Shown: in pieces, positions 30,430 to 35,556 of the stretch
Layout of the letters: each line of letters starts with the position of its first letter
How positions within the stretch are numbered: position 1 is the stretch's first letter
Virus record (IMG/VR): IMGVR_UViG_3300030451_003020
Coordinates: 1 to 53,002 of that record
DNA length: 53,002 nt
Direction: 5' to 3' (one strand)
DNA from: a virus
Program-made: the position numbers and the translations under genes
Notes under the pieces: model-generated
Database searches by the model: none
Told to the model about the DNA's origin: nothing
What the model saw: the letters and a program-made list of their open reading frames with translations, nothing else

Positions 30430-30678
30430 ATGATTACCGTAAGATGCAAAGAATGCGGAACAGAACTAACAAGCACTAGTAAAGTTCAGTTCTGTGGTTG
30501 TTCCAACCAAATGAGAGTTGTGGACAATAAAGTTGGTGCTGTTGACTTAGATAAAGTCGTAATGGTATCAAATAAAATAGAGAATAAGATTGATAGTCAT
30601 TTCTCTAGATCGGAACTTCTCTATCAAGAGGAGAGACGTAGACGCAAGGTTCGTAGACTGGACTTTGAAGTCAAATAG
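30430..30678 (+). CDS. Small zinc-ribbon-like protein (82 aa)
   Basis: The N-terminal CKECGTELTSTSKVQFCGC supplies four cysteines (CxxC and CxC) that could bind zinc. The C-terminal half is a charged helix rich in Arg (EERRRRKVRRLDF). It resembles small cyanophage proteins of unknown role, perhaps nucleic-acid binding. The last base of its stop is the first base of tRNA-Ser. Confidence 0.75.
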   Translation: MITVRCKECGTELTSTSKVQFCGCSNQMRVVDNKVGAVDLDKVVMVSNKIENKIDSHFSRSELLYQEERRRRKVRRLDFEVK

Positions 30679-30764
30679 GAAGAGTGGTCGAGTGGTTTAT
30701 GGCACTGGTCTTGAAAACCAGCGAGGGTGCAAGTCCTCCGTGGGTTCAAATCCCACCTCTTCCG
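30678..30764 (+). tRNA. tRNA-Ser (anticodon TGA)
   Basis: A class II tRNA with a long variable arm: acceptor GGAAGAG/CTCTTCC, anticodon stem CTGGT/ACCAG with loop CTTGAAA, T-arm GTGGG-TTCAAAT-CCCAC, discriminator G. Confidence 0.94.
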
Positions 30765-30833: not shown

Positions 30834-31088
30834 ATGCCATCTAATGACCAACAATCTTTGTCATTGGAAACAAGAACGTGTCCAAAATGTCAAGCAACAT
30901 GGATAAACGGACAGCATTATTGGTACACCGGTAAGACTGGAAATGAAATGGATCTTGCTGGATTAGTCTGTAATAATCATGGTGATGAAACCTGCATAAA
31001 TCCTTGCAAAGGTGAAGAAGGTGGAGTAACATGGGAAGACAGAATGAAAATCTTGGTGAAGTTAGAAAATGAGTCACAGGATGGATGA
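30834..31088 (+). CDS. Small cysteine-rich protein (84 aa)
   Basis: CPKC near residue 16 is followed by LVCNNHGDETC and NPCKG, giving up to five Cys and two His that could bind zinc or iron. The centre is aromatic (HYWYTGKTG). No known family. It overlaps the next gene by 20 bases and starts a run of small genes leading to PTOX. Confidence 0.7.
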   Translation: MPSNDQQSLSLETRTCPKCQATWINGQHYWYTGKTGNEMDLAGLVCNNHGDETCINPCKGEEGGVTWEDRMKILVKLENESQDG

Positions 31089-31287
31089 AATCAAACCTGC
31101 TCATTACATCACAAAAGAAGAGTGTCAGATGATGATTGATGATGCTATACGAAAACACAATCGTAATGCTTCAATTATTAGTTTCTGTGTTGGTTGGGTT
31201 GTTCTTGCACTTTTCTCTGAAGGTCTTCTTAGACTTATTGGAGTAATACCACCACTTTTCCCATGGCTACACATCACATTGAAGTAA
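31069..31287 (+). CDS. Small membrane protein (72 aa)
   Basis: A soluble N-terminal part with a helical KEECQMMIDDAI stretch is followed by a hydrophobic region from about residue 34 to 68 (SIISFCVGWVVLALF, LIGVIPPLF), one or two membrane spans. A second ATG at 31081 is a possible start. It overlaps the next membrane-protein gene by 25 bases. No family is recognised. Confidence 0.65.
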   Translation: MSHRMDEIKPAHYITKEECQMMIDDAIRKHNRNASIISFCVGWVVLALFSEGLLRLIGVIPPLFPWLHITLK

Positions 31288-31445
31288 TCGGAATAGTTTT
31301 ACTTTTAGTATTTGCTGCCACGATGTTTTATCAGGGAACCATGATATTACATCAAAAACAAGGTTATTCACAAAAATATATAAAGAGAGACCTTGAGAGA
31401 ATGCGTCTAAGGGTCGAAGAGGTGATAAAAAATGCAAAAAATTAA
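31263..31445 (+). CDS. Small single-span membrane protein (60 aa)
   Basis: One membrane span at about residues 7-28 (VIGIVLLLVFAATMFYQG) is followed by a basic helical tail (SQKYIKRDLERMRLRVEEV). The tail would face the cytoplasm by the positive-inside rule. It overlaps the PTOX start by 14 bases. Its role is unknown; position suggests a link to PTOX. Confidence 0.68.
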   Translation: MATHHIEVIGIVLLLVFAATMFYQGTMILHQKQGYSQKYIKRDLERMRLRVEEVIKNAKN

Positions 31446-31935
31446 CTCACTGTTTTTAAATTTCACAGTTTCAATTATCGATTATCTTTACAGAGGGAGG
31501 GACTTTCAACGTTTTTGGGTGCTTGAAGAGATTGCAAGAGCACCTTATTTTGCATTTTTGAGTGTGTTACATTTACGTGAATCTTTAGGTTTACGAGGTG
31601 CCTGGCATTTATACTTAATGAAGGAACACTTCGGGCAGACAGTTAATGAGACAGAGCATTTGGAGTATATGGAAAGTCGGGGTGGTAATCGTTATTGGAT
31701 TGATCGTTTTGTTGCCAGACACCTCGTACTCCTCTACTATTGGGTCAACGTGGTTTATTATTGGGTGGCTCCTCGCTCTGCATACCATCTGTCATATGAA
31801 ATAGAACTTCATGCCGCAGAAACTTATGAAAAGTATCTTAATATACACCCAAATGATGATGATATTGTTAGAATTATGAATGATGAAATATTGCACTCTC
31901 AAGAACTACATAATGCAATAGAGATAATCAAATGA
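31432..31935 (+). CDS. ptox: Plastoquinol terminal oxidase (PTOX, alternative-oxidase family)
   Basis: PTOX transfers electrons from plastoquinol to oxygen at the thylakoid membrane, relieving over-reduction and saving photosystem II; cyanophage copies are known. The diiron ligands are visible in order: LEEIARAPYF, MKEHF and NETEHLEYM, then SYEIELHAAETY and NDEILHSQELHNA. The length of 167 residues is short against plant enzymes but contains all four helices. Hydrophobic membrane-docking patches (ARHLVLLYYWVNVVYYW) are present. It lies upstream of gnd and zwf. Confidence 0.9.
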   Translation: MQKINSLFLNFTVSIIDYLYRGRDFQRFWVLEEIARAPYFAFLSVLHLRESLGLRGAWHLYLMKEHFGQTVNETEHLEYMESRGGNRYWIDRFVARHLVLLYYWVNVVYYWVAPRSAYHLSYEIELHAAETYEKYLNIHPNDDDIVRIMNDEILHSQELHNAIEIIK

Positions 31936-32015
31936 CAGTTTTGTATGCATTTGCACTTATTACATTGCTAACTATTGGGATGCAATTAACATGGCCAGGG
32001 AGATACCGAGGTTAA
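31932..32015 (+). CDS. Tiny single-span membrane peptide (27 aa)
   Basis: ATG overlaps the PTOX stop (ATGA) and the stop is one base from the next start. The peptide is essentially one hydrophobic span (YAFALITLLTIGMQL) with a short WPGRYRG tail, like small subunits of photosynthetic complexes. Identity cannot be assigned from 27 residues. The tight fit between two genes is the main evidence. Confidence 0.55.
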   Translation: MTVLYAFALITLLTIGMQLTWPGRYRG

Positions 32016-32016
32016 C

Positions 32017-32253
32017 ATGTCAAAGAAAACCGAGGAAGAAAGAAAAAAAGTAGTAGAGAAGATCTCTAAACACATTCATCCACATGATGATGAACCTGAT
32101 CCTACTGCACACATGGGGAACTATAATTTTCCTCAAATGCTTTTTGCTTTCTGCCTTGGTTTTTGCACTATGTTTGTTTTATCAGTCGATACAATAAACG
32201 ATTTTAAAGGATGCCCATTACCAGAGTATTTTCAAAAAGAGGTTCAAGGATGA
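32017..32253 (+). CDS. Small single-span membrane protein (78 aa)
   Basis: A charged N-terminal half (EEERKKVVEKISKHI, His- and Asp-rich) precedes one span at about residues 39-59 (MLFAFCLGFCTMFVLSV). The next gene starts in its stop (ATGA). No family is recognised. Confidence 0.68.
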   Translation: MSKKTEEERKKVVEKISKHIHPHDDEPDPTAHMGNYNFPQMLFAFCLGFCTMFVLSVDTINDFKGCPLPEYFQKEVQG

Positions 32254-32462
32254 AGTATCAACTAACACTTGTACTTTGTTTTGCACCTCTTGCGATTATC
32301 TACATAGTGTTAAAACTAGCAGTATGGATGTCCGCTGTAAATTCCGAATCGGATTATGTTAAACAAGAACCTTTTCGTAAACGAGGACCCTATGTGGCAG
32401 ACGCATATGCAGACGTTGATGAGGAGGAAGAGGAATATGGAGATCGCACAGATTTTAAATGA
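32250..32462 (+). CDS. Small single-span membrane protein with acidic tail (70 aa)
   Basis: An N-terminal span (LTLVLCFAPLAIIYIVLKLAVWM, residues 5-27, in part) is followed by a strongly acidic tail (DVDEEEEEYGD). The start at 32250 forms an ATGA junction; the upstream frame from 32211 has no ATG. Function is unknown. Confidence 0.68.
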   Translation: MKYQLTLVLCFAPLAIIYIVLKLAVWMSAVNSESDYVKQEPFRKRGPYVADAYADVDEEEEEYGDRTDFK

Positions 32463-32583
32463 TGCCATATGTGAGTATTATTCTGATGAAGATCTTCCAG
32501 TTCCAGATTGGAAATTAAAAAAAGATCCACAATGGTGGATTGATTATCTAAAAGAATTAAACATTGACCCTAGAAACCCATGA
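32437..32583 (+). CDS. Small hypothetical protein (48 aa)
   Basis: ATG 32437 has GAGGAAGAGG directly upstream. The product contains EYYSDEDLPVPDW and a PQWWIDYLKELNI helix, an aromatic acidic peptide. It overlaps the previous gene by 26 bases and gnd by four (ATGA), so it is probably translated just before gnd. Confidence 0.62.
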   Translation: MEIAQILNDAICEYYSDEDLPVPDWKLKKDPQWWIDYLKELNIDPRNP

Positions 32584-33617
32584 AAGTAGGATTAATCGGA
32601 TTAGGAAGGATGGGAGAAGGGATGTCCCGTCGAATGCTAAAAGCAGGAATTGAAGTTTATGGATACAGAAGAAACATTACTAAGGCACAAGAAGCAGCAG
32701 ATAACGGGTATATTACTGCAGCTGCAGATTCTTTGGAAAGCCTTGTTCAAGTAGTACACGAACAGGAAGGTATGGTTGGTAAATCACCAGGTATCTTTCA
32801 ACTTGTTATTCCCGCAGAACTAGTAGAGGACACCATCAATGAGTTACTACCATTACTTGGCGACGGGGATATTATTATTGACCATGGCAATAGCAACTTT
32901 AAAGATTCTAGACGCAGGGCAGAACGGCTTGAAAAATTGGGCATCCAATATATTGACTGCGGTACTAGTGGTGGTGTTTACGGTTTGGACCGTGGATACT
33001 GTCTTATGGTTGGTGGTGCAAATACTGCAGTATCCGTCTGCTCTCCTATCTTTAGGGCACTCGCACCAGGTATCGGATCTGCCCCTCGTACAGATCCAAC
33101 CAGTCGTGCAACATCTGCAGAGTACGGTTGGTTACACTGCGGACCACCAGGTGCAGGACACTTTGTCAAAATGGTTCATAATGGTGTAGAGTATGGAATC
33201 ATGCAAGCATACGCAGAAGGATTTAATATCCTGCATGAAGCTGATGCTGGGGCAGCTTACGTTAAAGAGGGCGATGCTGAGGTTGCTCCGATGGAAAACC
33301 CGAAAGATTACTGCTACGATATTGACGTTGCTGAAGTGGCTGAGTTATGGCGTCGTGGCAGTGTGGTTGGTTCTTGGTTGCTTGACCTTACCGCTGATGT
33401 ACTACGCAGCGATAGAGAGCTTAGCAAGTTCGGTGGGGGAGTTAGCGATAGTGGTGAGGGTCGTTGGACTGTTCACGCTGCTGTGGACCTTGGTGTGCCT
33501 GCCCCTGTTATCTCTACTGCCTTATTTGAACGATTCGGATCAAGACGACTCGGAGAGTTTGCAAACAAAGTCTTGAATGGTATGCGTTTCATGTTTGGAG
33601 GACACAATGTTCGGTAA
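32580..33617 (+). CDS. gnd: 6-phosphogluconate dehydrogenase (decarboxylating)
   Basis: Gnd oxidises 6-phosphogluconate to ribulose-5-phosphate with release of CO2 and NADPH. The NADP-binding start is MKVGLIGLGRMGEGM; DHGNSNFKDSRRR and IDCGTSGG follow, then GHFVKMVHNGVEYG with the catalytic Lys and His/Asn. At 345 residues it belongs to the shorter GndA-like class, lacking the long C-terminal domain of the 470-residue enzyme. It is followed by zwf, so the whole oxidative pentose pathway except lactonase is encoded. Confidence 0.95.
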   Translation: MKVGLIGLGRMGEGMSRRMLKAGIEVYGYRRNITKAQEAADNGYITAAADSLESLVQVVHEQEGMVGKSPGIFQLVIPAELVEDTINELLPLLGDGDIIIDHGNSNFKDSRRRAERLEKLGIQYIDCGTSGGVYGLDRGYCLMVGGANTAVSVCSPIFRALAPGIGSAPRTDPTSRATSAEYGWLHCGPPGAGHFVKMVHNGVEYGIMQAYAEGFNILHEADAGAAYVKEGDAEVAPMENPKDYCYDIDVAEVAELWRRGSVVGSWLLDLTADVLRSDRELSKFGGGVSDSGEGRWTVHAAVDLGVPAPVISTALFERFGSRRLGEFANKVLNGMRFMFGGHNVR

Positions 33618-33735
33618 TGCCCTTGCGATCTTATGCATACCCTTTGTACTATCCACAATATATTTCGGGTTACGAAAGGGTGAAAATAATTACTACGACT
33701 CAGACAAATATGACGGAAACGGAACCGCTCACTAG
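33607..33735 (+). CDS. Tiny single-span membrane protein (42 aa)
   Basis: The ORF bridges gnd and zwf, overlapping gnd by 11 bases and zwf by 26. It reads MFGNALAILCIPFVLSTIYF, then a polar tail (RKGENNYYDSDKY). This hydrophobic-then-acidic layout is like small thylakoid complex subunits; NDH-1 subunits such as NdhP are known in some cyanophages, but I cannot confirm a match. The upstream GGAGGACAC is a good ribosome site. Confidence 0.58.
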   Translation: MFGNALAILCIPFVLSTIYFGLRKGENNYYDSDKYDGNGTAH

Positions 33736-35053
33736 ACGCATAGTTATCTTCGGTGCTACTGGAGATCTATGTAAGAAAAAATTGATTCCAGCACTCTTTG
33801 AATTGTGGAAAAAAGAACTTCTTCCACAAAATATTTTGATTGTTGGTGCATCCCGTAGGGATCTTCCCAAAGAAACTTGGTTGGAAACCCTTGGTGATTA
33901 CCCACTAGAGTTTACACATTGGTTAGATTTTGTATCAGCTGATCTTGACTGTCAAGAAAGTTTGAAAAAACTTCATGATAAGAGTGCAGATACAACATAT
34001 TTCCTGTCTGTTCCACCAGAGAGATACGAAAATGCAATCATCAACCTCAAAGAAACAGGATTCCTCGAAGACCCAGACCGCTCCCGTGTTGTTATTGAGA
34101 AACCCTTTGGGTACGATCTTGAATCTGCTAATCATCTACAGTCTGTGGTGGGGAGATATTTACGCGAGAAGCAAGTCTATCGCATTGATCATTATCTCGG
34201 TAAAGATACTGTTAACAATATTCTTGCTACGAGATTTGGTAATGTTCTTCTGGAACCACTTTGGAATCGGGAGTACATAAGTGAAGTTCAAATCTTTGCA
34301 ACTGAAACTTTAGGATGTGAGGGTCGTTCTCAATACTATGAGGGTGCGGGTGTGGTTCGTGATATGTTGCAAAACCATATGCTTCAGATTCTTTCTTTAA
34401 TTGCAATGGAAGCACCCTGTAGGATGAATGCTGTTGAAATTCGTAGAGAGAAGACTAAAGTTCTTTCTGCAACAAGACTTGGTAGAAAACTTGTTACTGG
34501 ACAGTATGAAGGTTATCGTAATGAACAAGGTGTTGGACCAGATTCCAGCACTCAAACTTTTGCTGCAGGTGACATTTACATTGACAACTGGAGGTGGCAA
34601 GGTGTTCCTTTTTACTTTTTGACCGGTAAGAAGATGCCATATCAATGTGTAGAGGTTGTTGTCAAACTTAAGGCGCCACCTGTCGGATTGTTTGAGGGTG
34701 AAACACCTGGACGTATTGTTATGCGTTTACAACCTCACGCACACCTTGATATTCAGATTGATGTAAAATCTCCTGGCATGAGTGAGCAAGTTGAACTTGC
34801 AACCCTCACTCATCGATACCCTGATTGGTTGGGTGTTGATGGTTATGAAAAACTTTTATATGATGCGTTAAATGCAGATCAATCGCACTTTGTTCACTCT
34901 GAGGAAGTGCTTGAGTCTTGGCGTATTGTTGACGATCTTCTTTGTACTGGTGAAAAATGTCCGGTAAGAACTACACCTTATATCTACAATACTGGTACTT
35001 GGGGTCCTTGGCATAAAGTACAACAAATTACCGACTGGGATTATCCAGCATAA
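33710..35053 (+). CDS. zwf: Glucose-6-phosphate 1-dehydrogenase
   Basis: Zwf makes 6-phosphogluconolactone and NADPH from glucose-6-phosphate. The coenzyme motif is IFGATGDLCKKKL near the N-terminus, followed by EKPFGYDL and the active-site RIDHYLGK. The length of 447 residues is somewhat shorter than host enzymes (about 500). ATG 33710 was chosen because the family starts just before the coenzyme motif; the frame is open to 33617. With gnd it would supply NADPH for NrdA and ribose for nucleotides. Confidence 0.95.
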   Translation: MTETEPLTRRIVIFGATGDLCKKKLIPALFELWKKELLPQNILIVGASRRDLPKETWLETLGDYPLEFTHWLDFVSADLDCQESLKKLHDKSADTTYFLSVPPERYENAIINLKETGFLEDPDRSRVVIEKPFGYDLESANHLQSVVGRYLREKQVYRIDHYLGKDTVNNILATRFGNVLLEPLWNREYISEVQIFATETLGCEGRSQYYEGAGVVRDMLQNHMLQILSLIAMEAPCRMNAVEIRREKTKVLSATRLGRKLVTGQYEGYRNEQGVGPDSSTQTFAAGDIYIDNWRWQGVPFYFLTGKKMPYQCVEVVVKLKAPPVGLFEGETPGRIVMRLQPHAHLDIQIDVKSPGMSEQVELATLTHRYPDWLGVDGYEKLLYDALNADQSHFVHSEEVLESWRIVDDLLCTGEKCPVRTTPYIYNTGTWGPWHKVQQITDWDYPA

Positions 35054-35056
35054 CCT

Positions 35057-35179
35057 ATGGACAAAGACGAAAAGAGGGAGTTCTACAAGGGACTCAGAGA
35101 AAGGATTAAACAACTTAGGATGGAACATCTTTTTGAAGAACCTTGCCCACTTTACGAACCAGAAGAAGATGATTCATAA
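35057..35179 (+). CDS. Tiny charged protein (40 aa)
   Basis: The gene starts three bases after the zwf stop and overlaps the next gene by 11 bases. The peptide is helical and basic in the first half (KREFYKGLRERIKQLRM) and acidic at the end (EPEEDDS). No function is known. Confidence 0.6.
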   Translation: MDKDEKREFYKGLRERIKQLRMEHLFEEPCPLYEPEEDDS

Positions 35180-35330
35180 ACTTTCACACTTTGCTGCTTA
35201 TGTTCTCAACAATCCTTACACATTAGGATCATTGTGTGTGGCATTAGTGTTCGTTCCCATTCTTGGAATGTGGGCAGTTCACAAATATGGATGGGAACAC
35301 TGGGCACCATTTGACAGAGGACATAAGTAG
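35169..35330 (+). CDS. Small single-span membrane protein (53 aa)
   Basis: One membrane span at about residues 18-36 (LGSLCVALVFVPILGMWAV) lies between a His-containing N-terminus and an aromatic tail (YGWEHWAPFD). The upstream frame to 35133 was not used because ATG 35169 overlaps the previous gene in the common style. A promoter overlaps its end. Confidence 0.65.
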   Translation: MIHKLSHFAAYVLNNPYTLGSLCVALVFVPILGMWAVHKYGWEHWAPFDRGHK

Positions 35331-35339
35331 GGTTATAAT
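35311..35339 (+). promoter_or_regulatory. Consensus sigma-70 promoter
   Basis: TTGACA at 35311-35316 and TATAAT at 35334-35339, 17 bases apart, overlap the end of the preceding gene. Transcription would start near 35346 and run through a mini-ORF into the tRNA-Pro group. Confidence 0.85.
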
Positions 35340-35482: not shown

Positions 35483-35556
35483 CGGGGTGTAGCTCAGTTT
35501 GGTAGAGCACCCGCTTTGGGAGCGGGCGGCCGTAGGTTCAAATCCTGTCACCCCGA
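35483..35556 (+). tRNA. tRNA-Pro (anticodon TGG)
   Basis: Acceptor CGGGGTG/CACCCCG, anticodon stem CCCGC/GCGGG with loop TTTGGGA, T-arm GTAGG-TTCAAAT-CCTGT, discriminator A. No encoded CCA. Confidence 0.94.

Follow-up and report, generated by a model that had tools for sequence, protein, structure and literature searches.

What role do so many very small membrane proteins play among the redox genes of a cyanophage? The question is raised by a tight gene run in the 53,002-nucleotide stretch of viral DNA analyzed here (the window; positions 1 to 53,002 of IMG/VR virus record IMGVR_UViG_3300030451_003020, which comprises 67,848 bases), whose gene matches are to T4-like cyanophages and whose DNA polymerase shares 89.5% identity with its counterpart in Synechococcus phage S-SM2. 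The run, which is bounded by tRNA-Ser (30678 to 30764) and tRNA-Pro (35483 to 35556), reads m1, m2, PTOX, m3, m4, m5, s48, gnd, m6, zwf, s40, and m7, where m1 to m7 denote open reading frames (ORFs) for single-span proteins and s48 and s40 those for small soluble proteins, all being located on the + strand. The original prediction for this locus held that the seven single-span proteins may anchor PTOX or alter NDH-1, cytochrome b6f, or photosystem complexes and so steer electrons to PTOX and NADPH. The answer begins with m6 (33607 to 33735), which, judged by its sequence, is NdhP, a subunit of NDH-1L, the cyanobacterial photosynthetic complex I.

Searched against the PDB as a single sequence, m6 retrieved two sequences only, both of which are NdhP (E 4.4e-5 and 4.2e-4), while a profile built from 24 relatives matched the NdhP chains 6khi_P (E 1.7e-7) and 6hum_P (E 4.4e-6), its third PDB match, PnsB4 of the chloroplast NDH, being not significant (E 0.66). 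Cyanobacterial NdhP was recovered by profile in 80 loci at 46 to 70% identity (the 80-locus sets used here comprise best matches only). One match was also obtained in each of the 14 cyanobacterial genomes searched whole (E 5e-9 to 3e-17), a result which represents a positive control rather than a frequency, as these genomes were drawn from the 80 loci. Cyanobacterial NdhP, as seen in 6khi_P and 6hum_P, has approximately 40 to 45 residues, one span, and an FG...YY(D/E)(S/T)xxYxGNGxAH C terminus, and m6 is similar in each respect: it is 42 residues long, with an N-terminal span at residues 4 to 22 (19-residue Kyte-Doolittle mean, 1.91) and the C-terminal sequence YYDSDKYDGNGTAH. Residues Y29, Y30, Y35, G37, N38, G39, A41, and H42 of this motif, which is also present in host copies, are invariant in 24/24 aligned phage copies, and the profile contains 15 invariant positions. 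The family corresponds to phrog_2173, and the ndhP start is preceded by GGAGG. The suggestion that these small proteins alter NDH-1 can, therefore, be retained for m6, as an NdhP homologue; the other six yielded no credible match in the data searched.

The viral gene is unlike that of cyanobacteria in lying between gnd and zwf and overlapping both (by 11 and 26 nucleotides, respectively, in the window), and most phage copies of the protein are three residues longer in the segment between FG and YY. This linker comprises four residues in 79/80 cyanobacterial copies and seven residues in all 32 distinct PTOX-linked phage copies and in 114 of the 129 copies of the wider phage set; m6 departs from the host-type linker length with its motif intact, a trait seen here and not a published criterion. 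The NdhP proteins of P-SSM2 and S-SCSM2R are without the insertion. A tree of 96 NdhP proteins gave no firm number of acquisitions, displaying three label changes and being compatible with a single origin; in the same tree, P-SSM2 NdhP grouped with Prochlorococcus (support 88/79), hinting at a separate acquisition in that phage. The P-SSM2 gene product, PCMG_00257 (locus L175, 3983 to 4117), is annotated as a “predicted protein” and ends in GDGCAHDVKR, as in Prochlorococcus copies. A further cyanobacterial ndhP is held by a contig labelled as a Bifidobacterium breve metagenome-assembled genome (L154), which, for this reason, is probably mis-binned.

The position of ndhP between the two dehydrogenase genes recurs among relatives. 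In a set of 196 representatives of 305 viral loci, grouped by shared sequence, ndhP accounted for 92/104 profiled gene starts within 150 nucleotides after gnd, and zwf for 93/94 of those within 150 nucleotides after ndhP, fractions which are biased toward close relatives since best matches only were used. Among annotated phage records, tblastn detected NdhP in 392, m7 in 296, m1 in 267, gnd in 246 (233 of them cyanophage-named), m5 in 153, PTOX in 99, zwf in 92 (78 cyanophage-named), and m4 in 38, with phage DNA polymerase gp43 present in 461 cyanophage-named records; these counts include duplicates (GenBank plus RefSeq entries and many S-RIM2 and ACG-2014 clones) and derive from separate searches that were not intersected. 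NdhP as an obligate partner of zwf was ruled out by its 392 records versus 78 for cyanophage zwf. In phages devoid of zwf, ndhP has gnd (or a version of it half as long), petE, and m7 as its neighbors or is located at other sites, and no annotated PTOX was observed near NdhP in seven zwf-less or unusual phage regions. The half-length Gnd (~157 to 158 residues) adjoins ndhP in ACG-2014a and S-SKS1 (L173, 3326 to 3802, and L177, 3501 to 3971) and may be a stable short form, because one PHROG, phrog_3646, is of matching length.

Annotation of the region has rarely captured ndhP, with NdhP being named under the match in 1 of 60 records sampled at even steps down the ranking (S-SCSM2R). The annotated zwf of S-SM2 begins at a start from which ndhP DNA is translated out of frame, and the same reading is possible in the window, in which the true start of zwf, encoding a glucose-6-phosphate dehydrogenase of 447 residues (33710 to 35053; phrog_4941), is probably 33710 and not 33617; the phrog_4941 profile spans Zwf residues 1 to 447, and the additional residues obtained by starting at 33617 stem from ndhP in the wrong frame. 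In S-RIM2, ACG-2014d, and S-SKS1, ndhP is covered by an out-of-frame ORF of 98 to 101 residues; the possibility that NdhP is fused to another domain was considered for these phages and ruled out, as translation gave a different frame. The available text of PMC3037559 reports zwf genes of 276, 303, and 306 base pairs in Syn33, Syn1, and S-ShM2, which it terms degraded. These short coding sequences are labelled T4-GC1021 (L409, 14321 to 14596; L414, 1738 to 2040, - strand; L415, 3197 to 3502), and each overlaps, in another frame, an intact ndhP (E 3e-25 to 6e-24). Similarity of T4-GC1021 to the mis-started zwf (Syn1, E 3e-5; S-ShM2, E 2e-5) was confined to the stretch read from ndhP and was not significant for Syn33 (E 0.39), while comparison with the true zwf yielded BLASTP E values of ≥0.6 and negative Zwf profile scores. 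As in-frame similarity to Zwf was absent from these comparisons, T4-GC1021 was rejected as a degraded zwf; its downstream part looks like a separate family of small soluble proteins. A reported example of gene decay is thereby removed, and several records probably carry an incorrect zwf start.

The original prediction was accurate as to the gene content of the run, since all seven single-span ORFs of 27 to 78 residues are present, each with an ATG start, and the coordinates bear out their overlaps with the redox genes and with one another; the small soluble genes of the run, s48 and s40, were not part of that prediction. The 72-residue m1 (31069 to 31287; phage-only family phrog_1096) overlaps by 25 nucleotides its usual downstream partner, the 60-residue m2 (31263 to 31445; phrog_1953), which in turn overlaps by 14 nucleotides the 167-residue PTOX (31432 to 31935; phrog_4235, E 2e-93; Pfam AOX). 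PTOX overlaps the 27-residue m3 (31932 to 32015; conserved W21 and TWPxRYR end) by 4 nucleotides, and a gap of one base separates m3 from the 78-residue m4 (32017 to 32253; phrog_16669; conserved HPHDDEPDPT and FKGCP), whose last 4 nucleotides are shared with the 70-residue m5 (32250 to 32462; phrog_2832), a protein with an acidic tail. Next are s48 (32437 to 32583; phrog_2075) and gnd, specifying a 6-phosphogluconate dehydrogenase of 345 residues (32580 to 33617; phrog_1319), while zwf is followed by s40 (35057 to 35179; phrog_2505) and the 53-residue m7 (35169 to 35330; phrog_1184, labelled T4-GC922 in S-SM2; conserved HKYGWEHWEPF). At the extreme end of m7, a perfect sigma-70-type promoter match (TTGACA, 17, TATAAT; 35311 to 35339, + strand) is directed toward tRNA-Pro. 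The T4-late-like motif NATAAATA was counted 13 times on the + strand and 0 times on the - strand of the whole window, with none between 30402 and 47436.

Each of the seven ORFs contains one stretch with a 19-residue Kyte-Doolittle mean of 1.85 to 2.58, this value remaining below 1.6 for PTOX, gnd, zwf, s48, and s40. Six match PHROGs of unknown function (E 3.8e-23 to 3.7e-49), and m3, for which no PHROG match was obtained, is nonetheless present in relatives, where its tail is conserved. Across 84 sequences (80 IMG/VR contigs around PTOX, three phage regions, and the window), m1 to m7 were present in 41, 22, 35, 30, 20, 39, and 26, respectively, absence from this set meaning little as many of the contigs are short. 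Purifying selection was evident for all seven families, with ratios of nonsynonymous to synonymous differences (pN/pS) of 0.27 to 0.39 in relatives (0.36 for ndhP) and values below 1 for 1562/1564 usable pairs (pN <0.3 and pS >0.05, parts overlapping neighboring genes included). Hydrophobic out-of-frame ORFs do exist locally, for example, within gnd, but the notion that all seven are chance hydrophobic frames is contradicted by family conservation, pN/pS, and the PHROG matches, and this reading, to which we attach next to no weight, was dropped, every one of the seven being a conserved coding sequence. Single-span products are encoded by 7/9 small genes in the run versus 12/106 small annotated coding sequences outside the S-SM2 island (Fisher p 3e-5), a post hoc comparison because the region was picked for that very feature.

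The six families other than NdhP are real, conserved, virus-only proteins. For m1 to m5 and m7, considered as small subunits of b6f, photosystem I, photosystem II, or other parts of NDH-1 (NdhQ, NdhL, PetL/M/N, PsbX/Y), no credible match was found in solved chains (NDH-1 structures included), Pfam, NCBIfam, or the 14 cyanobacterial genomes, so that the proposed kinship with b6f or photosystem subunits is left unsupported. Among solved chains and Pfam, their lowest E value was to an olfactory receptor (0.036, for m7), and these searches could overlook relatives that are very remote. The match of m2 to the NCBIfam NAD(P)H-quinone oxidoreductase subunit 3 (E 0.048; 14.3 bits versus a cut-off of 145) was judged to be chance, and relatedness among the seven families was rejected, the best hhalign probability being 7.3. 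Recurrent pairings were observed in viral loci (m1 with m2, 70 cases; m5 with s48, 61; m3 with m4, 29), and in the 56 loci with enough flank, m7 was located within 3 kb of ndhP in 49, m1 in 44, zwf in 41, and PTOX in 35; m7 is thus the best candidate partner of ndhP among the six.

The location of these genes differs between phages. Between the corresponding tRNA-Ser and tRNA-Pro genes of S-SM2, there is only an m1-like gene, and the redox genes adjoin petE and petF at a distance of 30 kb, while SynMITS9220M01 harbors gnd, ndhP, and zwf within a tRNA array, as in the window, and is without an annotated PTOX. Because these locations differ, the block, in whole or in part, moves between sites, as proposed in the available text of PMC3037559 for the cyanophage carbon-metabolism cassette (petE, PTOX, gnd, zwf), which shares these genes and is likewise hypothesized to be mobile and located near tRNAs. 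That cassette differs from the present one in that “ndh” is absent from the main text of PMC3037559, as available, and in that Syn1, Syn33, and S-ShM2 were counted as having degraded zwf. Cyanophage ndhP and ndhI have been suggested from metagenomes, as indicated by the accessible portions of PMC3877843 and PMC10452541, and the same gene name is thus attached to viral sequence there; the accessible part of the latter, a 2023 review, gives no ndhP count among its 153 genomes, versus the 392 phage records detected here. The accessible literature on viral ndhP mentions neither the placement of the gene in a gnd-zwf cassette nor how frequent it is nor the correction of zwf, although primary metagenome reports may say more.

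In Thermosynechococcus elongatus, NdhP is confined to NDH-1L, in which it is part of the distal NdhD1/NdhF1 unit with a cytoplasmic C terminus and is needed for the complex (PMC4131877, available text). Structures described in the available part of PMC6992706 place NdhP in contact with NdhD and NdhF, with ferredoxin as the donor and NDH-1L passing electrons to plastoquinone. A model of infected Prochlorococcus, which does not include a viral NdhP, routes cyclic electrons via NDH with PTOX as a sink, the NADPH/NADP+ ratio rising (PMC5082946, available text). Drawing on the identification of NdhP by sequence, on its gene order and frequency, and on the purifying selection observed, we consider it rather probable that the run belongs to a mobile cyanomyovirus redox cassette in which gnd-ndhP-zwf would supply two NADPH-making enzymes together with a viral NdhP for the host NDH-1L. 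During infection, the viral subunit would be incorporated into host NDH-1L and would preserve or retune the complex as host gene expression falls, and cyclic and respiratory electrons would thereby reach plastoquinone, with the pumping of protons; PTOX, where present, would pass surplus electrons to oxygen, while Zwf and Gnd would make NADPH. Some of the phage-only single-span proteins, m7 first, might conceivably also target this complex. The predicted steering of electrons to PTOX and NADPH is plausible when the cassette is taken as a whole.

Several observations weigh against this proposal. The three-residue insertion lies just after the span, and the cassette-type viral NdhP may, therefore, work unlike the host subunit; many phages with ndhP have no PTOX or zwf, and the full circuit is, therefore, not the sole setting of this gene; and the link of the six other families to NDH-1 is one of neighborhood, as no matches outside phages were found in the searched data, and those neighborhoods are shuffled. 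The linker insertion could tune or spoil the subunit, and a decoy is, accordingly, a live rival, in which viral NdhP takes the place of host NdhP and, through the insertion where membrane and cytoplasm meet, would loosen NDH-1L and thereby stop cyclic flow or host respiration. The difference in linker length between host and phage copies and the loss of NDH-1L upon NdhP deletion in T. elongatus (PMC4131877, available text) agree with such a role, which we nevertheless regard as improbable because the C-terminal motif is kept, the insertion is missing from some phage copies (P-SSM2 and S-SCSM2R), and a cassette with PTOX and NADPH makers suits support better than blockade. A more elaborate form of the proposed support is a remodelling kit, in which the modified NdhP and phage-only single-span subunits (m7 first, perhaps m1/m2, m3/m4, and m5) would turn host NDH-1L virus-specific and feed plastoquinone and PTOX, with Gnd and Zwf produced from the same overlapping run; we view this as a tentative and rather unlikely extension.

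As regards the six other single-span proteins, it is quite possible, if somewhat short of an even chance, that they are plasma-membrane lysis, superinfection-exclusion, or host-takeover factors whose only tie to the redox genes is a shared variable region. They have no credible relatives in the 14 cyanobacterial genomes, their positions are shuffled, and single-span small genes occur elsewhere in S-SM2 (12/106); these points are countered by the company of ndhP, with m7 and m1 lying within 3 kb in most loci, and by the failure to match a named phage lysis or exclusion family, the PHROGs of the six being all of “unknown function” (none for m3). That the small proteins anchor PTOX, as had been suggested, or are joined with it in a single complex is very improbable: m3 does overlap the PTOX stop by 4 nucleotides in the window, and the next gene after PTOX is m3 in 24 and m1 in 20 of the 86 scored neighbors, but gnd follows PTOX in 35/86, no small gene is a constant partner, and NdhP, m7, and m1 (392, 296, and 267 records) are each approximately three to four times commoner than PTOX (99), a distribution to which anchoring is a poor fit.

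NDH-1 is a proposed, and as yet unproven, electron route in infected picocyanobacteria, and a viral NdhP within a cyanomyovirus redox cassette would give that model a concrete and testable part. The viral NDH-1 subunit is common in sequenced cyanomyoviruses and, where both NADPH-making genes are present, is fixed between them; alongside ndhP, six conserved phage-only membrane proteins can now be named.

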